Assembly: GCA_023244935.1 (NCBI GenBank)
Contig: JAHFLJ010000003.1
Span: 1 to 42,058, forward strand
Origin: Candidatus Liptonbacteria bacterium
Lineage (GTDB): Bacteria > Patescibacteriota > Minisyncoccia > UBA6257 > 2-01-FULL-56-20
Length of the DNA: 42,058 nt
Direction: 5' to 3'
Positions 5,064 through 22,459 of the stretch are shown one piece after another (within the stretch, counting starts at the first letter, position 1; each line of letters begins with the position of its first letter). The notes below the pieces were generated by a model, which made no database searches, had not been told where the DNA came from, and saw only the letters and a list, made by a program, of their open reading frames with translations. The position numbers and the translations under genes were made by a program.

Positions 5064-5924
5064 ATGGATTCTTTACACGATTATAAAATTAAACTCCTAG
5101 AAGAGAAGGCGATTAAAATCCGCGAGGATATTATTAAGATGCTTGTCTCTGCCGGTTCCGGTCACAGCGCCGGTCCACTTGGGATGGCGGATGTTTTTAC
5201 GGCTTTATATTTTCACGCTTTAAATCACGATCCGAAGAAACCAAATTGGCCAGAGCGCGACCGAGTTGTTCTTTCCTGTGGCCATATTGCGCCGGTTCTT
5301 TACGCCACGCTTGCGCATGCCGGTTATTTCCCGGTATCCGAACTTAAAACTTTAAGAAAATTCGGCTCACGTCTTCAAGGACATCCACATCGCGGATCAC
5401 TTCCGGGAGTGGAAACAACTTCAGGGCCCCTAGGCTCCGGTCTTTCGCAGGCTATTGGTATGGGGCTAGCCGCAAAGCTGAATCACGAACGACATAAAAT
5501 TTATTGCGTGATGTCCGATGGGGAACAGCAGGAGGGCAACATCTGGGAGGCAGTAATGTTCGCCGGCAAGCACAAACTTCATAATGTGATTGCAATAATG
5601 GATAGAAACAATATCCAGATAGACGGACTCACTGAAAACGTCATGCCACTTGAACCGATTGCCAAGAAATATGAATCTTTCAACTGGAATGTCTTGCAAG
5701 TTGACGGGCATAACTTTGAACAAATAATTTTTGCGATTGCCGAAGCGCGCGCGATTGTTGAAAAACCGACCATGATTATCTGCCACACAATTCCGGGAAA
5801 GGGCGTCAGTTTTATGGAGGGAGATTTTCTTTGGCACGGCAAACCACCAAAGCCGGAGGAGGCGAAAATAGCATTAAATGAGCTTAGAACTCTCGAGGGC
5901 AAAATTAAAAGCGAACACGACTAA
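5064..5924 (+). CDS. Transketolase, N-terminal (TPP-binding) subunit
   Basis: 286-aa first half of a split transketolase. Together with the C-terminal subunit encoded at 6303 it would transfer two-carbon units between sugar phosphates in the pentose phosphate pathway. Visible motifs are GSGHSAGPLGMAD (substrate and TPP region), RDRVVLSCGHIAP, GHPHRG, TTSGPLGSGLSQAIGMGLA and the thiamine-diphosphate motif SDGEQQEGNIWEA ending in MDRNN. The pyrimidine-binding and C-terminal domains are absent, as in the two-gene transketolases of archaea and many Patescibacteria. It heads an operon with no Shine-Dalgarno and an ATG right behind the promoter. Confidence 0.93.
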   Translation: MDSLHDYKIKLLEEKAIKIREDIIKMLVSAGSGHSAGPLGMADVFTALYFHALNHDPKKPNWPERDRVVLSCGHIAPVLYATLAHAGYFPVSELKTLRKFGSRLQGHPHRGSLPGVETTSGPLGSGLSQAIGMGLAAKLNHERHKIYCVMSDGEQQEGNIWEAVMFAGKHKLHNVIAIMDRNNIQIDGLTENVMPLEPIAKKYESFNWNVLQVDGHNFEQIIFAIAEARAIVEKPTMIICHTIPGKGVSFMEGDFLWHGKPPKPEEAKIALNELRTLEGKIKSEHD

Positions 5925-5938
5925 AAATTAAATTTAAA

Positions 5939-6301
5939 ATGGATGAAATAAAAACAATCAGCTCCGAGTTTCCCCCCAACACAAATTTTGGGTTTTTGTC
6001 GTTCGCTTTTAGTTTTAGTGGTCTCGTGATATATATTGCAAATTTTGTTAGGTTTGCCATGTATTGGGACGGCGGGGCTCCTCACTGGCTAATCTTTTCA
6101 ATGGTTTATATTTCTCCGATAATTTTAGTGCTATTTGCATTGCTAGCTTTTGTTTTTGGGCGTAAAAGTTTGAAGACGGAAGTCGGTTGGGCTAAGCGAT
6201 TTGGAATAGGAGGTATTTGTTTTGCAATAATCGCCATTCTTGTATCTATATTTCCAATATATAAGTCAATCATGTTCATAGCGAGCAACCAGAAACTATA
6301 A
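5939..6301 (+). CDS. Small three-TM membrane protein of unknown function
   Basis: A 120-aa protein with three hydrophobic segments (about residues 18-43, 50-73 and 89-112) and short charged loops (GRKSLKTEVGWAKR). It sits between the two transketolase subunit genes, 14 nt after the first and 1 nt before the second, so it is probably cotranscribed and translated with them. I recognise no family. Its position inside an otherwise two-subunit enzyme operon is odd and gives no clear functional clue. The A/T-rich spacer before it carries no ribosome binding site. Confidence 0.7.
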   Translation: MDEIKTISSEFPPNTNFGFLSFAFSFSGLVIYIANFVRFAMYWDGGAPHWLIFSMVYISPIILVLFALLAFVFGRKSLKTEVGWAKRFGIGGICFAIIAILVSIFPIYKSIMFIASNQKL

Positions 6302-6302
6302 A

Positions 6303-7289
6303 ATGCTAAAAAAAGAAACCAACTTAAATAGTAAGATATTCGATGAAGATGTTCTCCAAAAACCAACCCGGGACGGTTACGGAGACGGAATAATTTTGGC
6401 CGGCGAAGAGGATAAAAACGTAGTTGTTTTAACCGCGGACCTTTCCGACTCCACTCGCACCGCGGAATTTGCGAAGAAGTTTCCGGATAGGTTTTTTGAA
6501 GTTGGCATTGCCGAACAAAATATGGCGACCATTGCTTCCGGTTTGGGTATCTCCGGAAAAATTCCGTTTATTTCTTCCTATGCTACGTTTTCTCCAGGCA
6601 GAAACTGGGAACAAATTCGAACAACTATTTCGTATAACGATTCTAATGTTAAAATCGCCGGGCATCACGCCGGAATTTCCGTCGGTCCGGACGGCGCGAC
6701 TCATCAGGCGATAGAGGACATTGCGACTATGCGCGTAATGGCGAATATGAAAGTTATCGTGCCGTGCGATTCCATTGAGGCGCGCAAAGCGACCGTCGCT
6801 TCCGCCAAAATTTGGGGGCCGGTGTATTTGCGATTCGCTCGTGAAAAGACTCCGATAATGACCACTGAGGATACCCCGTTCATTCCGGGTAAGGCCGAAG
6901 TATTTTGGGAATCCAAAAAACCGGAAGTTTTAATAATCGGCGCCGGTCCGATACTTCACAACGCGCTTCTTGCCGCTAAGATTTTAGAAAAAGAAAAAAT
7001 AGGAGTAATGGTTTTGAATTGTCACACGATTAAACCGTTGGATAAAAAAATCGCTCAACTTGCGGATAAAATCGGCGCAGTTGTAACCGTGGAAGAGCAT
7101 CAGGTATTAGGTGGTTTGGGTGGCGCGGTCGCCGAGCTTTTGGCAAAAACCAATCCGGTTCCGATGGAATTTATCGGCATGCAAGACACTTTCGGAGAAT
7201 CCGGTGAACCGGCTGAGCTCATTAAAAAGTATAAAATGGCTCCGGTAGATATTGTTTCCGCGGTTAAGCGCGCCCTTAAACGAAAATAA
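6303..7289 (+). CDS. Transketolase, C-terminal (Pyr and C-terminal domain) subunit
   Basis: 328-aa second half of transketolase. The region LTADLSDSTRT...FFEVGIAEQNMATIASGLG holds the conserved Glu of the pyrimidine-binding domain that activates thiamine diphosphate, followed by GHHAGISVGPDGATHQAIEDIA. The transketolase C-terminal domain follows (from about residue 200, VLIIGAGPILHNALLAA to TVEEHQVLGGLGG). Length and order match the archaeal-type C subunit. DXS-like enzymes share the architecture, but the split and the rpe/rpiB context favour transketolase. It starts 1 nt after the stop of the small membrane protein and ends 1 nt before the next start. Confidence 0.93.
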   Translation: MLKKETNLNSKIFDEDVLQKPTRDGYGDGIILAGEEDKNVVVLTADLSDSTRTAEFAKKFPDRFFEVGIAEQNMATIASGLGISGKIPFISSYATFSPGRNWEQIRTTISYNDSNVKIAGHHAGISVGPDGATHQAIEDIATMRVMANMKVIVPCDSIEARKATVASAKIWGPVYLRFAREKTPIMTTEDTPFIPGKAEVFWESKKPEVLIIGAGPILHNALLAAKILEKEKIGVMVLNCHTIKPLDKKIAQLADKIGAVVTVEEHQVLGGLGGAVAELLAKTNPVPMEFIGMQDTFGESGEPAELIKKYKMAPVDIVSAVKRALKRK

Positions 7290-13826: not shown

Positions 13827-14414
13827 ATGAACAAATCAGAAAAAGGATTTACGCTTATTGAGCTTTTGGTTGTCTTGGCACTGGTCGCCATTTTGTCGGT
13901 AGTTGTCATCTTGACCTTGAATCCTGCAGAGCTTTTGAAACAGGCTCGTGATTCTAACCGAACTTCCGACCTTTCAACTTTAAAGAGCGCAATTTCGTTG
14001 TTTATGGCTGATGTGAATGTTACCCCAACATCACTCGGAGCAGCTGGAACTTGTTATTATTCATACGTTGCTACTACTGCAACTGTAGGTTGTGGCGGAG
14101 CATTTCCTACTAGTACCACTAATGGAACAACAACTTACGCCGGGGTTAGAAACATTAATGGAACCGGTTGGATTCCAGTGAATTTCAGTGCGATTAGCTC
14201 TGGAGCACCTATCGGACAGCTTCCGGTTGATCCTGTGAATACTTCCGCGTTCTATTATACTTACGGGGTAGGTACATCAAGTAATCAGTTGTTTGAGATT
14301 GATGCGAAAATGGAAAGTACTAAATATAGTACTACTGGCGGATCTGAGTTATTGACTTCTGACGGAGGCAACAACAATGGTTGGTATGAAACCGGAACGA
14401 CACTTTCTCTCTAG
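13827..14414 (+). CDS. Type IV major pilin (PilA/PilE-like)
   Basis: 195-aa prepilin. A 7-residue leader MNKSEKG precedes FTLIELLVVLALVAILSVVV, the class III signal cleaved by prepilin peptidase between Gly7 and Phe8, with the conserved Glu at mature position 5. The C-terminal globular part has a Cys pair (GTCYY...VGCGG) that could form a disulfide, and ends with a Gly/Asn-rich segment. It has its own promoter and terminator and is placed in front of pilB and pilC, so it is probably the abundant fibre subunit. The pilin-type end with GG-rich and Thr-rich content is typical of Patescibacteria pilins. Confidence 0.92.
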   Translation: MNKSEKGFTLIELLVVLALVAILSVVVILTLNPAELLKQARDSNRTSDLSTLKSAISLFMADVNVTPTSLGAAGTCYYSYVATTATVGCGGAFPTSTTNGTTTYAGVRNINGTGWIPVNFSAISSGAPIGQLPVDPVNTSAFYYTYGVGTSSNQLFEIDAKMESTKYSTTGGSELLTSDGGNNNGWYETGTTLSL

Positions 14415-14633: not shown

Positions 14634-16349
14634 ATGGGACTTCCAATACCGGCAAATCAATTGAAAGGGAAACTTTTAACGGAAGGGTTAATAACTCCGG
14701 AAAAGTTTGATGCGCTCGAACAAGAGGCCGGTTTAAAAAATCAAAGTTTATTGGACATCCTGGTGTCCGAACACGTTGCCGATAAAAATTATTTAAATCG
14801 ACTCATCGCTGATTTTTTGGGCGTTGAGATTGTCAATTTCAATACAACCCCAATCGACCCGGAAGTTGTTAAACTGATTCCGGAAGAAGTCTCTCGACAG
14901 AGGGAGATTTTGGTTTTTAGTAGAGGCGCGGATGGTTCTTTGAACGTCGCCATGGCCGACCCGAGTGATCTTTCCACAATTACATATTTATCTCAACACC
15001 TTGGAACTAAAATTTCGGTATTTCTGGCCGATCAGCAGGATTTGAATCGCGGCTATACTGTTTACGGTTCGCAGATGACCAGCGACTTCAAGGCAATTAT
15101 CGAAAAAAATATTCAAGATTCTATCCGCGCCCAAACTAAAGGCGGGCAGAAGGAAGAGGCCGAACTTCCAATTGTCGCGGTTGTGGATAACATCATGTCC
15201 TACGCGGTATCCCTGCGCGCCTCGGATGTGCACATTGAGATAATGGAGGACGTGACCATTGTGCGTTATCGCATTGACGGAATCCTTTACGAGATAATGC
15301 GTATCCCTAAATTAGTGCACACCGCGATTGTTGCCCGTATTAAAATTTTATCCGGACTTAAGCTCGACGAGCACTACGAACCGCAAGACGGTCGTTTTAG
15401 ACATTCTGCCGCGAATCAAATGGTGGATGTTCGTGTTTCTATTCTGCCGACTTTCTATGGCGAAAAAATGGTTATGCGCTTGCTCGAAGCTTCCCAGAAA
15501 CCGCTATCTCTTGAGGAGCTGGGGTTTTTGCCGGAAGCCGCTAAAACAATTCGGGATAATTTGAAAAAAACTTACGGAATGATTCTGGCGGCCGGTCCTA
15601 CCGGTGCCGGTAAAACTACAACATTGTACGCGCTTATGAATATTTTGAATAAGCCAAACGTAAATATCGTTACAATTGAGGATCCAATCGAATATAACAT
15701 GCGTTATGTTAATCAAGCGCAGGTAAATGCGCGCGCCGGGGTTACTTTTGCTTCCGGTTTGCGTGCGATTTTGCGACAAGATCCGAACATTATTATGGTC
15801 GGGGAAATCCGCGATAAAGAAACCGCAAACATTGCGGTTCAGTCTGCCTTAACCGGTCACTTATTGCTTTCTTCTATTCACACCAACGATGCCCCAACGA
15901 CTATCCCACGTCTTTTTGATTTGGATGTCCCGCCATTTTTAGTAGGTTCGGTTTTGAACTTGGTTATTGCCCAGCGTCTTGTGCGTCAAGCCTGTAAAAA
16001 TTGTATTTATTCCTACGAGCCGGATGAAGACACTAAGGCCATTGTAAAAAAACAGGTAGAGGAGCTGAATATTCGAGTTCGCGGATATACGCTTCCTAAG
16101 TTATTATATAAAGGCAAGGGATGTAATATTTGTAATAACACCGGATATCGGGGACGACTTGGTATTTATGAAGTTTTTGAGGTAACCGAGAATATTCGAA
16201 AAATACTTGTGTCTCCACAGTTTGATCTGGACGCGCTTCGCGCCAAGGCCGAAGAAGAGGGGATGACGACTATGTTCGAGGACGGATTAAGAAAAGCCGA
16301 GCTGGGGATGACCACAATCGAAGAAGTTTTGAGAGTTATCCGAGAATAG
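14634..16349 (+). CDS. pilB: Type IV pilus extension ATPase PilB (GspE family)
   Basis: 571-aa cytosolic hexameric motor that powers pilus polymerisation. An N-terminal MshEN/T2SSE-N domain (about 1-150) is followed by the ATPase core: an N2 region with DVHIEIMEDVTIVRYRIDG, Walker A GPTGAGKTTTLYA (about 320-332), the Asp box VTIEDPIEY, Walker B-type IIMVGEIRDKETA and the His box LTGHLLLSSIHTNDA. Two CxxC pairs (QACKNCIY and GKGCNICNNTG) form the zinc-binding element typical of PilB/GspE. Length matches the family. It begins a run with pilC and the pseudopilins. No PilT retraction ATPase is seen in the window. Confidence 0.96.
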   Translation: MGLPIPANQLKGKLLTEGLITPEKFDALEQEAGLKNQSLLDILVSEHVADKNYLNRLIADFLGVEIVNFNTTPIDPEVVKLIPEEVSRQREILVFSRGADGSLNVAMADPSDLSTITYLSQHLGTKISVFLADQQDLNRGYTVYGSQMTSDFKAIIEKNIQDSIRAQTKGGQKEEAELPIVAVVDNIMSYAVSLRASDVHIEIMEDVTIVRYRIDGILYEIMRIPKLVHTAIVARIKILSGLKLDEHYEPQDGRFRHSAANQMVDVRVSILPTFYGEKMVMRLLEASQKPLSLEELGFLPEAAKTIRDNLKKTYGMILAAGPTGAGKTTTLYALMNILNKPNVNIVTIEDPIEYNMRYVNQAQVNARAGVTFASGLRAILRQDPNIIMVGEIRDKETANIAVQSALTGHLLLSSIHTNDAPTTIPRLFDLDVPPFLVGSVLNLVIAQRLVRQACKNCIYSYEPDEDTKAIVKKQVEELNIRVRGYTLPKLLYKGKGCNICNNTGYRGRLGIYEVFEVTENIRKILVSPQFDLDALRAKAEEEGMTTMFEDGLRKAELGMTTIEEVLRVIRE

Positions 16350-16490: not shown

Positions 16491-17693
16491 ATGTTATACC
16501 ATTACGTCGCATCCGACGCGGCCGGAAAATTGTATGAATCCGATATCGACGCCCAAAATCTTGATGGTGTATTAAAAAATCTTTCGACCAAGGGACTGCG
16601 TCCGATAAATATTCAATCACTAAAGGACGCTTCCGGAATAATTATATTTAAAGGGAGTATAAATCTGACCGATAAGATATTTTTAACCAAATATTTATCT
16701 TTGATGTTAAAAGTTGGTACTGACCTCCTTTCGGCAATTAATATTTTAATCGCCGATTTTGAAAAACCGGTTATGCGCTCTTTACTTATTGAGGTGCGCG
16801 AAAATTTGATGCGCGGACAGGCATTCAATCAGGTTTTTTCCAGGTATCCCAAGTATTTTTCACCGGTTTTTGTAAATATGGTTAAAGCGGCGGAAGCCTC
16901 CGGTAATCTACAACAAACCTTCGAGGATCTTAGTATCTCTCTCCAGCGGGACGGTGAACTTCAAAGTAGAGTTCGCGGAGCTTTAATCTATCCGATAATT
17001 ATTTTAGTGGCTTCGGTCTCCGTGTTTGTTTTTCTTTCAACTTTTGCGATTCCAAAAATCTCCGCGGTTTTCCGAGAAGGAGGTATTAAAGTTCCCGGAT
17101 TCTCCAAAATAGTTTTTGCGGTAGGAGACTTTATTAACACCAATATTATTTCACTGGGCATAGGGGTTTTTATTTTCGCTTTAGCTTTTTGGATATTTTT
17201 CTTTAAAACACAAGTCGGGCGTCAAATTATGGATAATTTTCTTTCCAATCTACCGGTCGTCAGAAATCTATACAGGGATATTGCCATACAACGTTTTGCT
17301 TCTACCTTCAGTTCGCTGATGAAAGCCGGTTTGCCGATTATCCAAGCCACACATATTACCGCAGACGTAGTTGTGAACAAGCGTTTCAGAGACTCTTTGT
17401 ATCGCATAGCCGATGAAGGGTTGGCAAAAGGAATAACTATTGGTGATGCCTTCAGAAGAGAGCCGGTATTCCCTAGGGTGGTTACAAACCTAATCGCGAT
17501 TTCCGAAAAAGCCGGTCACTTGGAAGAGCTGTTGGATACTCTTGCGGATTTCTATACCTCTAGAATTGATTCCAGCGTCAAAATATTAATCAGTGTTTTG
17601 GAGCCAGTTCTTCTTCTGGGCATGGGAGGCATGGTTGGTTTAATCGCTGTTTCGATTATCGTTCCGATTTATCAGCTTACTTCCACTTTCTAA
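16491..17693 (+). CDS. pilC: Type IV pilus inner-membrane platform protein PilC
   Basis: 400-aa GspF/PilC-family platform protein that anchors PilB and receives pilins. It has a short N-terminal cytoplasmic region (LYHYVASDAAGKLYESDIDAQN) and two T2SF domains (about 70-190 and 275-395). Each T2SF domain has the motif for helix packing and a membrane segment, with a third hydrophobic segment in the middle (about 215-240). The diagnostic stretches VKAAEASGNLQQTFEDLS and ISEKAGHLEELLDTLADFY are present. The 141-nt spacer after pilB holds a small ACCGAG/CTCGGT hairpin (16366-16384) and no ribosome binding site. Confidence 0.95.
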   Translation: MLYHYVASDAAGKLYESDIDAQNLDGVLKNLSTKGLRPINIQSLKDASGIIIFKGSINLTDKIFLTKYLSLMLKVGTDLLSAINILIADFEKPVMRSLLIEVRENLMRGQAFNQVFSRYPKYFSPVFVNMVKAAEASGNLQQTFEDLSISLQRDGELQSRVRGALIYPIIILVASVSVFVFLSTFAIPKISAVFREGGIKVPGFSKIVFAVGDFINTNIISLGIGVFIFALAFWIFFFKTQVGRQIMDNFLSNLPVVRNLYRDIAIQRFASTFSSLMKAGLPIIQATHITADVVVNKRFRDSLYRIADEGLAKGITIGDAFRREPVFPRVVTNLIAISEKAGHLEELLDTLADFYTSRIDSSVKILISVLEPVLLLGMGGMVGLIAVSIIVPIYQLTSTF

Positions 17694-17737: not shown

Positions 17738-18235
17738 ATGCGTATAAACATATTTAAAACTAAGAAAAACAAAAGAACCGGATTCACGCTGGTTGAATTG
17801 ATTTTAGTTATTGCCTTAATGGTCGTTATTATTTTAATTTCCGTATTAAGTCTCGGAGGCAGAAAAGGAAAGACCGAATTGGACGGCATTACCAAGCAAA
17901 TCGTTGGACAACTGCGCGAGGCCCAAAGTAAGTCCGCGTCCCAAGTTAATAGCACAACCTGGGGGGTCAGGATTGACAACGCGACCAGCGGAGCATTTTT
18001 TGGAACGTTTAGTAGCTCAACCTATACCACCACAACAAAAACAAGCTATACCCGCCTTCCGAGAAATATCAGCTACGTGACCTCCACATTGCCAGTCGGA
18101 GCTTATCGCGAGATATTTTTTACGCAGATAAGTGGCGCTCCCTCAACCACCACCATTATTTCGCTTCAATTAACCGACACTCCAAATGTTTCCACCACAA
18201 TAAGCGTAGGGTTGGGGGGAGTAATCGGCTACTAA
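17738..18235 (+). CDS. Minor pseudopilin, GspH/FimT-like
   Basis: 165-aa protein with a Lys-rich leader ending in KRTG, then FTLVELILVIALMVVIILISV. It has the prepilin cleavage site and Glu at mature position 5. The N-terminal helix is followed by GLN/ARG-rich helix content (IVGQLREAQSKSASQVN) and a beta-rich C-terminal domain with Thr-rich strands, typical of GspH/FimT minor pilins that initiate fibre assembly. It lies 44 nt after pilC in the same direction and belongs to the same cluster. Confidence 0.85.
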   Translation: MRINIFKTKKNKRTGFTLVELILVIALMVVIILISVLSLGGRKGKTELDGITKQIVGQLREAQSKSASQVNSTTWGVRIDNATSGAFFGTFSSSTYTTTTKTSYTRLPRNISYVTSTLPVGAYREIFFTQISGAPSTTTIISLQLTDTPNVSTTISVGLGGVIGY

Positions 18236-18270: not shown

Positions 18271-19512
18271 ATGATCCTGCCAAGAAAATCAGGCCAGTCT
18301 TTGATAGAAATACTCGTAGCTATAGGTGTCGGGGTTATTATGCTTGTCGGCGCAGTTACCGCGCTGGTTCCGGCAATAAAAAGTTTGTCGGACATAAGCA
18401 GAACCCAAGGTTCAGCCTCAGCGTCTAAGGAACTATTGGATAACGTCAGAATTTTTGCGGAGAGTAATTGGCATAACATAGATACTCTTTCAACCTCCCA
18501 GAAATACTTTTTGAATACCGCAACCTCAACTTTCGCTGTAGCCACCGGAACGGAAACGGTAATCTCCGATGGGATTACTTCCGGATTAGTTGGATATTGG
18601 AAGCTGGATGATAATTTAGGCACATCGGTCATGGATTTTTCAGGCAACGGGAATAGCGGTTCGAAAGCTGGCAACCCAACGGCTACGAGCAGTTGCTGGG
18701 CAGGCGGTTGCTATTTATTCAATGGCGCCGGTGATTATATTGACATCGGCAACAATACAATTCTTGGAAGCAGTGCTTTTACTTTGTCGGCATGGATAAA
18801 CCCCACTGCAATAAATAAATACTCCGCTGCGCTTATGATCGGAAATAGTGCTGCCGGGCAATCGGCATACATCGGAACTATTGCCACGGCCCAGGTCGGC
18901 ACTTCAAACTCAATCGGTGGCGGTTTTTACGGTATAAATTACGGGTCAGGAGTTACATCTGCAAATAAGTGGGTTCATGTCGCTATGACTTTTTCCGGGG
19001 GAGCAGATGGCAGTGCGAACATTTATATTGATGGAGAAAATAAATTAACGGCAACTTCGACTCCAAACCTTGGGTCGGCAACTAGACGAATTGGAAGAAT
19101 CGGGACGGATACTATATATGACTTTCCAGGAAAAATCGATGATGTCCGTATTTATAACCGAGCGCTTGCGCCGGCTGAAATCAATACAATCTATCGCGCA
19201 GATCTTTTTACCAGGAATTTTCAGGTAGCGGATGTTTATAGAGACGAAAACAATTCTGATAAAATAATTACAGGGACAGGGGGAACTTTGGATCCGTCAA
19301 CCAAACGAATTACAATTGAATATGGTTGGCCAGGTAGCCAGCTCAAAACTTTTTCGGCATATTTAACCAGATATAGAAATAAATCTTTTGTTCAGACTAG
19401 TTGGCAAGCCGGCGCAAGTAGCACCTATACTTCGACCACGGCCAATTGGTTTACGACATCAAGCGGAGTTAGTTATTCGACATCAACCGGAATAAGAATT
19501 GAAGGATTATGA
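18271..19512 (+). CDS. Pilin-like protein with nested LamG/ConA-like domain
   Basis: 413 aa. A short leader MILPRKSG precedes QSLIEILVAIGVGVIMLVGA, a pseudopilin N terminus with Glu at mature position 5. After a pilin-type stretch (about 45-103) comes a LamG/concanavalin-type jelly-roll module (about 104-309). It starts LVGYWKLDDN and DFSGNGNSG, continues with FTLSAWINP and KWVHVAMTFSGG, and ends KIDDVRIYNRALAPAEI. The pilin part then resumes (RNFQVADVYRD, DPSTKRITIEYGWPG). The lectin-like domain thus appears inserted inside a pseudopilin. A role in surface or host-polysaccharide binding at the pilus tip is inference. A near Shine-Dalgarno AGGAAG precedes the ATG. It overlaps the next gene by ATGA. 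Confidence 0.85.
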   Translation: MILPRKSGQSLIEILVAIGVGVIMLVGAVTALVPAIKSLSDISRTQGSASASKELLDNVRIFAESNWHNIDTLSTSQKYFLNTATSTFAVATGTETVISDGITSGLVGYWKLDDNLGTSVMDFSGNGNSGSKAGNPTATSSCWAGGCYLFNGAGDYIDIGNNTILGSSAFTLSAWINPTAINKYSAALMIGNSAAGQSAYIGTIATAQVGTSNSIGGGFYGINYGSGVTSANKWVHVAMTFSGGADGSANIYIDGENKLTATSTPNLGSATRRIGRIGTDTIYDFPGKIDDVRIYNRALAPAEINTIYRADLFTRNFQVADVYRDENNSDKIITGTGGTLDPSTKRITIEYGWPGSQLKTFSAYLTRYRNKSFVQTSWQAGASSTYTSTTANWFTTSSGVSYSTSTGIRIEGL

Positions 19513-20399
19513 TAAACAACATTAAAAAATTATGGTATATGTTGCCGATGGGCTTAATTTTAGGGATTGCCTTTTTATTATTCGGCAAGGATTTAAATAT
19601 TTTGAAAATGGCGCGTGCGGCGACTAATATCAGCTCCAACGTTACCGAACACTGGGCCTGGAACGATGTTGTCGGTTGGTTAGATTTTTATAACACGTTG
19701 AATGTAAATGTTAATCCAGTGCAACTTACAGGGTACGCAAGTTCTTCTATTGGGGACGTCTCACTTGATTGCGCGACAACTCGCGCAGGAAATGTTTGCT
19801 CCGGAGCAAATGACAACTACAAAGTAATTAACGACGGCAGTGGATATCTCTCCGGTTGGGCTTGGAATGATAACTACGGCTGGGTTAGTTTCTGTGGAGG
19901 AGGGGGTGCGGATCCTAACTGCCCCGGGAGTACGGCATATCAGGTTTCAATAAATCCGAATACCGGTCTATTCAGCGGTTATGCTTGGAATGATGTTATT
20001 GGTTGGATAAGTTTTAACTGCGCGGACATTGGAGTTTGTGGGACTTCGGATTATAAAGTCTTAACTTCCTGGGTTGCTTCTTCAACAGCCGCAGTTATTG
20101 AGTCGGCAACTTTCGATACCGGAGTCAGTGGCGGAGCGCAAATCAACTCTTTTTATTGGGAGGGTGATCCGGGGACGAATACCGCGGTGTATTTTCAGTT
20201 TGCAATAAGTAATTCTACCAGCGGTCCATGGAATTATTTCGGGAATTACGAAGCGAACGAAGGGTTGCCAAGGACCAAAGTAAATTTTATTTTACATAAT
20301 AATATGCGTTATTTCCGCTATAAAATAACTTTAGTTTCCGACCAAGGGCAACAAAGCACTCCGGTTATTAGAAAGGTGGTGATAGATTGGAGTCCGTAG
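19509..20399 (+). CDS. Secreted surface protein with WAWND-GW repeats
   Basis: 296 aa. Residues 12-37 form a signal peptide or anchor (MLPMGLILGIAFLLFG followed by a MARAA-type junction). Three imperfect repeats follow, each with the core WAWNDxxGWxxF: EHWAWNDVVGWLDF, SGWAWNDNYGWVSF and SGYAWNDVIGWISF. Cys residues flank the second and third. The C-terminal 110 residues look like a beta-sandwich (YFQFAISNSTSGPWNYFG). Its gene is embedded in the pilus cluster and translationally coupled to the LamG-containing pseudopilin, so both may be exposed on the pilus or cell surface. The repeat family is known to me only from uncharacterised CPR proteins. Confidence 0.75.
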   Translation: MINNIKKLWYMLPMGLILGIAFLLFGKDLNILKMARAATNISSNVTEHWAWNDVVGWLDFYNTLNVNVNPVQLTGYASSSIGDVSLDCATTRAGNVCSGANDNYKVINDGSGYLSGWAWNDNYGWVSFCGGGGADPNCPGSTAYQVSINPNTGLFSGYAWNDVIGWISFNCADIGVCGTSDYKVLTSWVASSTAAVIESATFDTGVSGGAQINSFYWEGDPGTNTAVYFQFAISNSTSGPWNYFGNYEANEGLPRTKVNFILHNNMRYFRYKITLVSDQGQQSTPVIRKVVIDWSP

Positions 20400-20411
20400 A
20401 CAACAAAATTC

Positions 20412-20520
20412 AACTAATAACTTATGACTTATAATTTTAAACAATCAATAAAAAGCAAAAACAATTCAAAAATGAGTTTGTTTTGTTTTGGTGATGAGTC
20501 ATTAGTGATCAGTGATAAGT
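20412..20520 (+). repeat. Dispersed AT-rich inverted repeat, copy 3, inside the pilus operon
   Basis: The left arm AACTAATAACTTATGACTTA (from 20412) and right arm words GGTGATGAGTCATTAGTGATC and AGTGATAAGT (to 20520) belong to the same repeat family as at 733, 14473, 25034 and 38507. A short GGCGCTTCGCGCC palindrome follows at about 20523. The repeat covers every plausible start codon of the downstream pilin-like gene. Confidence 0.75.
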
Positions 20521-20942
20521 CCGGCGCTTCGCGCCGTGGCCAAGCCGCGTTGTCGCTGGTATTTTTAATCGGGGGAATTGCGCTTTTGGTTTCAGTTACC
20601 ATAGCGGTAATCGCTATCAGTTTTTTGAATTCTACTTTTGCTTTTCAATCCGCAAATCGCGCCTATGCCAATGCCACTTCCGGAGCGCAAGACGCGCTTT
20701 TGAAACTTGCCCGCGATGATTCATTTTCGGATTTAACCGGATATCAAGTTCCTTATGTCATCGGAGGCTGTCTTTCTAATTGTGCTTTTGTCACAGTTAA
20801 CCAGGTTGACCCCAGTAAACAAGTGGAGATTATTTCCACAGCGACAGTTTTCGCTTCTACGCGTAAGATTAAGGTGGTAGTCGCGATAGATCCAAATAAT
20901 GGAGAAGTATCGGTTTCCTCATGGACTAATCTTGAATTGTAA
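20424..20942 (+). CDS. PilX/GspK-like minor pilin, start inside a repeat
   Basis: 172 aa as drawn. The functional core starts at RRGQAALSLVFLIGGIALLV, a pseudopilin N terminus whose mature residue 5 is Ser instead of Glu, as in GspK-type tip proteins. A globular part with a Cys pair (GGCLSNCAF) follows. The first 35-40 residues are translated from the dispersed inverted repeat, so the start is uncertain. ATG 20424 gives a long leader, ATG 20472 an intermediate one, and GTG 20505 a 12-residue leader that would best fit a prepilin. The gene is 24 nt behind the WAWND gene and 2 nt before pilMN, so it belongs to the pilus operon. Confidence 0.8.
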   Translation: MTYNFKQSIKSKNNSKMSLFCFGDESLVISDKSGASRRGQAALSLVFLIGGIALLVSVTIAVIAISFLNSTFAFQSANRAYANATSGAQDALLKLARDDSFSDLTGYQVPYVIGGCLSNCAFVTVNQVDPSKQVEIISTATVFASTRKIKVVVAIDPNNGEVSVSSWTNLEL

Positions 20943-20944
20943 AA

Positions 20945-22459
20945 ATGAAAATTAATATATTAAACAAGCTCCTCTCGGTAATAAAGGCAACGCCTACTAT
21001 TGGTGGCTTGGAGATTTCCGATTCATTTTTGCGGTTTTCCGTTTGGGACGGAGTGCAGTGGCTAACCACTGCGCTTCGGCTTCCTCCGGGCATAGTTGTC
21101 GGGGGACAGATTAAAGATCGCAAGAACTTCGTAGAGGCACTTAAGATGTTCCATAAACAAATTATGGGTAATAGGATGAGTAAATCTCGTGTTAGCGTGG
21201 TTGTTTCACTTAGCTCCATCGGAATATATACTCAAGTTTTCACTCTGCCGTTCATGGAAGGAGAAAGTCTTGATAAGGCTGTTCAGCTGAATATCCAGAT
21301 GATATCTCCACTGGACTTTGCAACTGCGTATTCCGGATGGCAGTTTGCCCACCGCGACGCCGACAATCTCAGAATAGAAATTTTAAGCGCGTTTATAAAC
21401 CGTAAAATTATTGATGATTTTTCGACATCTCTCAAAGAAGCTGGCTTTATTCCGGTTGCAGTGGAATCTCGCGCCCTCTCTCTTGTCAGATTAATTAAGG
21501 ATGCTGTTGCCGACATCGACAAAGAAAAATCACATATTATTTTGAGCGTGGATAGTAGCGGTGTGGATGTTATGATCTCCAGATATGGAGAATTACATTT
21601 TGATTATTTCAATTCCTGGAGAGATATTCAGGGAGACGATCGGGAGGTGACTTTTGATGCATTTAACGGCGCAGTGATAAGAAATCTTCATCAAGTCATA
21701 AATTATTATAGTTCGCATTGGCAAGATCCGCTTTCGGAAATACTTTATTTATCTCCGGTTTTTCAAGACCAGATAAAAAAAACCATCGAGGAAAATTTTG
21801 GGATTTCGGCAAAAGAATTAAATATTAACTCGCAGTCTCCGATAAGTTCCGACTGGTTTGTTTCTTTGGGGTCTGCAATGCGGGGAATGAGTTCTAGAAG
21901 AAATGACACCGAAATAAGTTTGCTTGGAATCGACGCTCAGGACGAGTTTCAGCAGGAGCAAGTTGTAGCCTTTCTACGTTTTTGGAGATCGCTTTTGCCG
22001 GCTTCGCTTTTAGTTCTACTGCTATCGGTTATCGCGGTTAACTACGTTCTTGATGATATTAACACCTCGCTTGCCGAGAAACTTTCCAGACTGGCTAGCC
22101 CGGAGCAAGTTAAAGAAATGTCTCTGATTGAAACCGAGGCAACAAATTTCAACCGTTTAGTCGGATTACTTTCATCCTTGGACTCCATCCCGCCGAAGAC
22201 AGTTGTAATAAAGAATATTTCCGAAATCGCCGATAAGAATCAAATTACGATTACGCGAATTTATAATCAAGCAAACAATGTGCCATATAAATTAACCGGA
22301 CAAGCGCGTAGTCAAGATGAGCTTATAGCTTTTAAAAAGGATCTCGATTCCAATCCGGTACTGATTAATGTGGTTTTGCCTTTGTCTAATATCAAGGCAA
22401 ACTCTCAGGGCGTTGATTTTTCGCTAACTTTTGACTTTAACTCCGCAAACGCTAAGTAA
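20945..22459 (+). CDS. Fused PilM-PilN type IV pilus alignment protein
   Basis: 504 aa. Residues 1 to about 330 match the actin-like PilM fold (IGGLEISDSFLRFSVW at the start; VAVESRALSLVRLI; HIILSVDSSGVDVMI). They are followed by a membrane helix at about 340-362 (SLLPASLLVLLLSVIAVNYV) and a periplasmic-type coiled and ferredoxin-like region (SSLDSIPPKTVVIKNISEIA...) that corresponds to PilN. In most bacteria these are two proteins held together by the PilN N-terminal peptide that docks on PilM; here they are one chain. No separate PilO or PilP gene is visible. Its last 55 nt overlap the 3' end of pth on the opposite strand. Confidence 0.87.
   Translation: MKINILNKLLSVIKATPTIGGLEISDSFLRFSVWDGVQWLTTALRLPPGIVVGGQIKDRKNFVEALKMFHKQIMGNRMSKSRVSVVVSLSSIGIYTQVFTLPFMEGESLDKAVQLNIQMISPLDFATAYSGWQFAHRDADNLRIEILSAFINRKIIDDFSTSLKEAGFIPVAVESRALSLVRLIKDAVADIDKEKSHIILSVDSSGVDVMISRYGELHFDYFNSWRDIQGDDREVTFDAFNGAVIRNLHQVINYYSSHWQDPLSEILYLSPVFQDQIKKTIEENFGISAKELNINSQSPISSDWFVSLGSAMRGMSSRRNDTEISLLGIDAQDEFQQEQVVAFLRFWRSLLPASLLVLLLSVIAVNYVLDDINTSLAEKLSRLASPEQVKEMSLIETEATNFNRLVGLLSSLDSIPPKTVVIKNISEIADKNQITITRIYNQANNVPYKLTGQARSQDELIAFKKDLDSNPVLINVVLPLSNIKANSQGVDFSLTFDFNSANAK

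Follow-up and report, generated by a model that had tools for sequence, protein, structure and literature searches.

A pilin-type subunit of Candidatus Liptonbacteria carries a nested LamG domain with a core that appears to be exchanged among relatives

The stretch of DNA analysed here (the window, 42,058 nucleotides from a Candidatus Liptonbacteria bacterium) contains a pil operon in which one open reading frame (ORF), at positions 18271-19512 of the forward strand, encodes without interruption a protein of 413 residues. It is a confirmed observation that this protein is a pilin-type subunit with a LamG/ConA-like domain nested inside it. We read it as a minor, probably tip-located adhesin pilin whose frame would be passed on vertically, whose lectin core would be open to exchange, and whose LamG domain as a whole would have come and gone in the course of evolution; we give this reading a probability of roughly 70%. 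It builds on computational observations of the architecture, the insert borders, the operon context, the restriction of the insertion site to LamG, the presence or absence of the domain within genera, and the conflict between core and frame in sister families. Genomes (G), contigs (C), loci (L), genera (g) and families (f) carry our own labels.

Architecture of the nested LamG pilin

The protein starts with a class III signal peptide, MILPRKSG/QSLIE, with Gly at -1 and Glu at +5, that is, a short leader ending in Gly and followed by a hydrophobic stretch that holds the Glu (MILPRKSG/QSLIEILVAIGVGVIMLVGAV). The Gly-Gln pair and the Glu of this motif are invariant in an alignment of 20 insert-free orthologues, and the Pfam N_methyl model matched residues 5-28 with 19.8 bits, just under its cut-off of 21.2. 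Proteins with class III signals are cut by PilD and assembled by PilB/PilC-type machines.

The LamG/ConA-like domain was recognised by Pfam Laminin_G_3 at residues 151-305 over the full length of the model (1-151 of 151; E=2.5e-27, 96.3 bits versus a cut-off of 27.6), and among solved structures the sequence nearest to it is that of domain 4 of the arabinanase AbnA (5hon, E=1.9e-5, residues 109-307). The same part of the protein matched the C-terminal region of the TafC family fimbrial protein model NF052521 (E=1.7e-14); the total of 53.8 bits fell short of the curated cut-off of 410, the pilin parts were unmatched, and a literature search linked TafC to no paper. The PilV model TIGR02523 reached 14.8 of the 52.2 bits curated for that family, and a contig scan with the single window protein matched only distant LamG proteins of other phyla.

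The borders of the insert follow from relatives that do not carry it. A search of 40 relatives turned up numerous proteins, about 210 residues long, whose matches to query residues 5-100 and 312-408 directly adjoin each other. In border alignments with 20 insert-free orthologues, plus one mixed set, the join without insert reads 'GTESV-(about 6 residues)-YTRYF', and the window protein reads 'GTETVISDG..LVGYW ... INTIYRADLFTRNF'. The insert comprises residues about 98-311 (214 residues) and replaces about six residues of a beta-hairpin turn; the median length of single-LamG inserts is 216. Against a profile of insert-free orthologues, pilin part 1 matched model positions 7-108 (E=5.9e-31) and pilin part 2 positions 106-201 (E=8.6e-27), and this two-part match, with an identical split point in dozens of genomes, lies far beyond chance. 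Since the gene order is the same with or without LamG (rluD, pilA, PilB, PilC, gspH-like pilin, LamG-site pilin, next gene, PilX-like, PilM-like, lepB), the proteins are positional orthologues. An earlier sequence-only reading of the window had started the domain at 'LVGYWKLDDN' and the C-terminal pilin part at about residue 310, which is within a few residues of the borders from the alignments, and the insert-free homologues that it had proposed to look for turned out to be abundant at the same operon position.

The window protein was modelled with AlphaFold2 from 22 sequences, with a predicted local distance difference test (pLDDT) score of 72.6 and a predicted template modelling (pTM) score of 0.69. 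In the full-chain model a helix and three strands precede the LamG domain, which has its strands within residues 106-295 and a helix at 301-308, and four pilin strands follow it (Table 1). The model of an insert-free orthologue (pLDDT 75.9 overall and about 90 over the head) consists of a helix at 14-68 and a sheet, and its strands 100-104 and 107-120 are linked by a tight turn that corresponds to the LamG insertion point. Both models have a long N-terminal helix and a head formed by an antiparallel sheet. Because LamG stands separate between pilin strands, and because the insert-free form keeps the same elements, the segment is not integral to the pilin fold. The model and the insert-free alignments thus agree with the earlier claim that a pilin N terminus and a C-terminal pilin part flank a jelly-roll domain.

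In a Foldseek comparison the best single-domain fold match of the LamG domain was 5hon_A, with a template modelling (TM) score of 0.64 by target length, which identifies the domain as a jelly-roll. Kinship with the clostridial toxin binding domains in the Foldseek list was considered and rejected as generic jelly-roll likeness, nothing suggesting a toxin.

Distribution of the insert across the order

The order was searched with the insert-free orthologue profile (E<=1e-14) in genomes at least 80% complete. The profile matched in all 38 genomes that represent the window's family and in 167 of the 227 genomes of the order, some of the family-level matches being weak and N-terminal. Inserts of more than 100 residues were read at the site in 55 cases, and all 55 contain LamG, with DUF2341 ahead of it in two of them and two LamGs in two others. 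The position is thus a LamG site and not a general domain socket, and the suggestion that other domains might be found in the same place yielded no example. A still larger insert, in G208, was read in part. One genome (G016, L041:6998-9103) has, besides the nested LamG, a C-terminal FGE-sulfatase (C-type-lectin-like) domain, and the same genome has a reverse transcriptase match. The FGE-sulfatase fold is common among retroelement targets.

Presence of LamG is patchy in the window's family f1, with 9 pilins carrying it and 22 without it among the 31 read, and almost all members of families f15 and f21 have it. The LamG state differs even within genera, as in the pairs G008/G042 and G009/G043, where the frames are 70% and 66% identical, respectively. 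On a tree of 106 pilin frames, calculated with the insert excluded, 13 or more changes of the LamG state are required, and well-supported branches force four of them; as the root is not known, gains and losses of LamG are indistinguishable on this tree. One old insertion followed by many losses, with LamG as decaying cargo, could by losses alone give such patchiness, and the poorly resolved LamG tree leaves room for it. We nevertheless consider that history improbable, as the insert is free of frameshifts and stops in the window protein and in most copies, the domain limits are intact in all 55 inserts, and at least two DUF2341-LamG inserts look separately acquired.

Probable exchange of the LamG core in sister families

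Pairs of genomes from one genus have similar frames but dissimilar LamG domains. Identities of frame and LamG are 96% versus 49% for G129/G133, 89% versus 43% for G126/G128, 79% versus 37% for G121/G122, and 78% versus 47% for G109/G110. At the DNA level the identity between G129 and G133 is mostly 79-98% upstream (coding stretches), drops to 36-45% over ORF bases 450-900, and recovers to 79-92% downstream. When 15 congeneric pairs were compared, identity was 64-87% over the 35 residues that begin the insert and the 20 that end it, and 26% in the middle, showing that the ends of LamG go with the frame and that the core of about 130 residues does not.

A frame tree places g38, g89, g92, and g94 each together with high support. 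In core trees of the same 23 rows a single origin of the core was rejected by the approximately unbiased (AU) test in g81 (p=0.0009), g38 (p=0.0008), and g94 (p=0.014); it was not rejected in g89 (p=0.085) or g92 (p=0.066), and in a 57-row core set the tree with g92 together scored higher (p=0.92). Cores are also common to different families: G016 (f1) and G109 (f15) have cores 65% identical and frames 34% identical, and for G170 (f21) and G143 (f15) the values are 51% and 32%. For the nested core of G168 the nearest match (55%) is the C-terminal LamG that the upstream pilin of G176 carries, from which it appears that cores pass between both kinds of site.

Extremely fast divergence in place under positive selection, without any exchange, would be another explanation of the core differences. 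Since a single origin was not rejected in g92 and g89, such divergence is still a candidate in these two genera, and the unchanged codons at identical residues of G129/G133 (22/44 in the core versus 159/263 in the rest) are not clearly different. This explanation does not account for cores that are closer across families than between congeners, for the G168-G176 resemblance between a nested and a C-terminal site, or for the rejection of a single origin in g81, g38, and g94, and the cores differ by indels and show near-random DNA identity beside flanks of 79-90%; on balance we find it unlikely. Homologous recombination with imported DNA via the conserved LamG ends would be the simplest account of the sequence patterns.

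The assemblies themselves deserve mention, since the genomes are metagenome-derived, multi-contig drafts and variable stretches assemble badly. Artefacts as the source of both the split and the core differences are nevertheless highly improbable, because the frame is open throughout in every case, the LamG ends are genus-specific and intact, one common core recurs at 93-99% identity in G131, G132, and G133, and the pattern is found in five genera and in single- or few-contig genomes, such as G023 (LamG present).

A diversity-generating retroelement as the source of the variation was rejected for G129, G133, and G109, there being no RVT_1 match in these genomes and the core differences including indels. 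Silent cassettes were not seen either: the core of G129 occurs only once in its own genome, and its best match in 41 family members is only 32%. A presumed second swap upstream of the gene in G132/G133 was dismissed, as the region is intergenic and tRNA DNA.

Operon and neighbouring genes

The coordinates of the pilin parts and of the surrounding genes are collected in Table 1. The start of the next gene overlaps the stop of the LamG pilin by 4 bases, and its protein matched no Pfam family above the cut-off. In five genomes (G011, G012, G026, G066, and G173) the orthologous pilin continues at its C terminus into the whole of this protein, in G041 into the repeat region, present twice, and in more than 12 other genomes into the C-terminal domain of the next-gene protein alone. 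These fusions point to a shared complex. G041 (L124:1273-2865) has a further insertion site, close to where the pilin ends, with repeats of the next-gene type that recur past the pilin end. The involvement of the neighbouring genes, as well as the core exchange in sister families, goes beyond what had been read from the sequence before.

Table 1 Features of the LamG pilin and its operon in the window.
Feature	Position	Strand	Evidence
Major-pilin-like protein	13827..14414	+	N_methyl 34.9 bits
PilB-type assembly ATPase	14634..16349	+	T2SSE 1.5e-117, MshEN 3.4e-13
PilC-type platform protein	16491..17693	+	T2SSF 2.7e-44
GspH-like minor pilin, just upstream, without LamG	17738..18235	+	gspH TIGR01708 1.5e-09, below family cut-off
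Prepilin leader MILPRKSG, residues 1-8	18271..18294	+	Prepilin peptidase predicted to cut after Gly8
Pilin part 1, residues 9-97 (helix 11-65, strands 78-82, 89-92, 95-98)	18295..18561	+	AlphaFold2; insert-free profile
Insert, residues about 98-311 (LamG/ConA-like and short linkers)	18562..19203	+	Insert-free alignment, AlphaFold2
Laminin_G_3 match, residues 151-305	18721..19185	+	Pfam, full model
Stretch matching the LamG core exchanged in sister families, about residues 157-286	18739..19128	+	Position-wise identity, 15 congeneric pairs
Pilin part 2, residues 312-413 (strands 312-324, 339-352, 359-368, 371-375; tail 380-413)	19204..19509	+	AlphaFold2; insert-free profile
Next gene, likely partner (secreted or anchored; WAWNDxxGWxxF repeats, beta domain at the C terminus; lacks a prepilin motif)	19509..20399	+	Fusions
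PilX/GspK-position small protein, hydrophobic N terminus	20424..20942	+	Operon position conserved; no family above cut-off
PilM/PilN-like assembly protein	20945..22459	+	PilN 21.0 bits, just below cut-off; position conserved

In families f15 and f21 the pilin at the upstream gspH position bears a C-terminal LamG with a variable core, and the two LamG pilins adjoin each other (L108:527-1732, L117:829-1983, L119:806-2026, and others). The LamG core of the upstream pilin differs between congeners, in G121/G123 even with the nested core conserved. In the genus of G132/G133 the LamG pilin gene adjoins ribosomal protein and elongation factor genes, and in three genomes of genus g92 (G129, G133, and G132; L082, L085, and L089) an in-frame TGA stands ahead of the annotated frame.

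The genome from which the window was taken has 712,058 bases in 31 contigs, and judging from this size (0.7 Mb) the source bacterium is presumably an episymbiont. Three of the ATPases encoded in the genome are PilB-like, and a shorter one is possibly PilT-like, which suggests more than one pilus system and possibly retraction. Three more LamG pilins of the same genome (L002, L003, and L004; G000:C10, C17, and C18) are PilA-like with a C-terminal LamG, and their cores are only 28-40% identical. Outside the window the genome also has a diversity-generating retroelement (G000:C3, L210:5871-8461) with a reverse transcriptase ORF at 7397-8461 of L210 (RVT_1, 1.1e-23) and a pair of near-repeats of 134 bases at 6363-6496 and 6946-7079, in which 20 of the 23 differences fall on A in the template copy. 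The other, variable copy forms the 3' end of an ORF at 5871-6506, which is not the LamG pilin.

Proposed role of the LamG pilin

In the mechanism that we propose, the two pilin segments would assemble into one pilin head, and LamG, with its ends close together, would sit in one beta-hairpin turn and project from the head without breaking the pilin fold. The subunit is predicted to be cut by a prepilin peptidase and assembled by the PilB/PilC machine of the same operon, and its most likely place is the pilus tip or close to it, in company with the neighbouring minor pilins and the next-gene protein. From there LamG would bind a surface glycan, or less likely a protein, on another cell. As the recognition target changes, recombination between the conserved ends of LamG would replace the binding core, with the pilin frame inherited vertically and the whole LamG domain gained or lost over time. 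The tip position is probable by analogy with other pilins, and a role of LamG as a glycan or partner-cell binding domain on the pilus is suggested by related modules. That the core of the window protein is itself subject to exchange would follow by extrapolation from the sister families.

Several results weigh against this proposal, among them the trees of g89 and g92 described above. In the set, no other core is more than about 35% identical to that of the window protein, and the protein has no LamG-bearing congener. The LamG pilin was not seen beside the pil operon in g38, g92, and G008, so membership of the operon is not universal. Residues 380-413 were modelled without confidence. The pilin head gave no fold match to solved pilins at E<0.2 and profile matches at E 0.4 only, and a search of the PDB with the insert-free pilin fold returned nothing significant, ComZ and the Xcp pseudopilus being at chance level; the label 'pilin' is accordingly based on signal peptide and long helix and on the place of the gene in an operon of the order PilB-PilC-pilin-PilM. 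Ligand-binding residues were not identified in the LamG domain, and many LamG/ConA folds bind proteins or nothing.

In another view LamG has a structural task, spacing or stabilising a pseudopilus or a piston like that of type II secretion systems (T2SS), and does not bind other cells. In keeping with this view the operon genes also resemble T2SS genes (gspH, PilB/GspE, and PilC/GspF), and the pilus works without LamG, given that 22 of 31 orthologues in the window's family were read without it. A structural part should be conserved, however, and the core varies more than any other part of the locus, with replacements even among close relatives, a pattern to be expected of a recognition domain; moreover, the related PilC module of Streptococcus sanguinis binds glycans (PMC9934059). 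We therefore regard a purely structural role as rather unlikely and prefer the tip adhesin with an exchangeable core. The sequence-only reading, which saw in the insert a binding domain that would let the pilus hold on to a host cell, was right about the architecture and is plausible on the function.

More tentatively, and with somewhat less than even odds, the adjacent minor pilins with nested and C-terminal LamG may form an order-wide recognition system in which cores are swapped between lineages by recombination through the conserved domain ends and set the partner cell that each lineage can hold. If so, it would be a pilus counterpart of tip exchange in phage tail fibres. How ultra-small, host-dependent bacteria choose and hold their partners is largely an open question. 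If the nested lectin sets the choice, a single stretch of 130 residues could be compared with partner identity across genomes, and the role could be tested directly by swapping or deleting one domain. Insert-free and lectin-bearing orthologues within one genus amount to a natural experiment, and the locus presents a pilin that accepts a whole domain in a hairpin turn and then exchanges the binding core only, the frame being kept for assembly.

Comparison with known systems

One of the closest known systems is PilC of S. sanguinis, in which a ConA-like module carried on a pilin binds glycans (PMC9934059). PilC is a minor pilin of a type 4 pilus, with a proposed tip complex, and like the window protein it has a class III signal peptide and a pilin moiety bearing a ConA-like jelly-roll. 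Its lectin is C-terminal, coming after an Ig-like module, its pilin moiety is odd and short, and no core exchange has been described for it, whereas the LamG of the window protein is nested in the pilin sheet between two full pilin parts and is followed by the pilin strands in residues 312-375.

Nesting as such has precedents in ComZ of Thermus thermophilus and in GspK, where domains are inserted in the pilin sheet and a tip position has been proposed (PMC6561018). In these proteins, as in ours, a second domain lies between beta-strands of a pilin-type fold. In ComZ it is a beta-solenoid between the last two strands, and in GspK strands 3 and 4 are separated by an alpha domain, whereas LamG occupies an earlier hairpin; the fold match to ComZ was not significant.

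Pili are also of importance in Nanosynbacter lyticus TM7x (Saccharibacteria), a cultivated member of the same broad group, whose type 4 pili aid host binding (PMC12206443). Its PilX1 and PilX2 are, like our candidate, minor pilins with extra domains, that of PilX1 being jelly-roll-like; unlike in the window pilin, the extra domains are C-terminal, that of PilX2 is a beta-propeller, and no LamG is named.

The InterPro survey of Raynaud et al. includes modular pilins with PF13385, those of candidate-phyla bacteria among them (PMC8179133), and these resemble the window protein in combining an N-terminal pilin motif with Laminin_G_3. In the accessible part of that survey, nesting, presence or absence at one site, and core exchange were not found, and the literature on LamG/ConA-like pilins in these bacteria, of which few subscription papers and preprints were covered, describes neither nesting nor core exchange. 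LamG pilins as such are thus already known (PMC8179133), and what is new, as far as the literature shows, is the nesting in a hairpin, the polymorphic presence at one site, and the exchange of the core in relatives.
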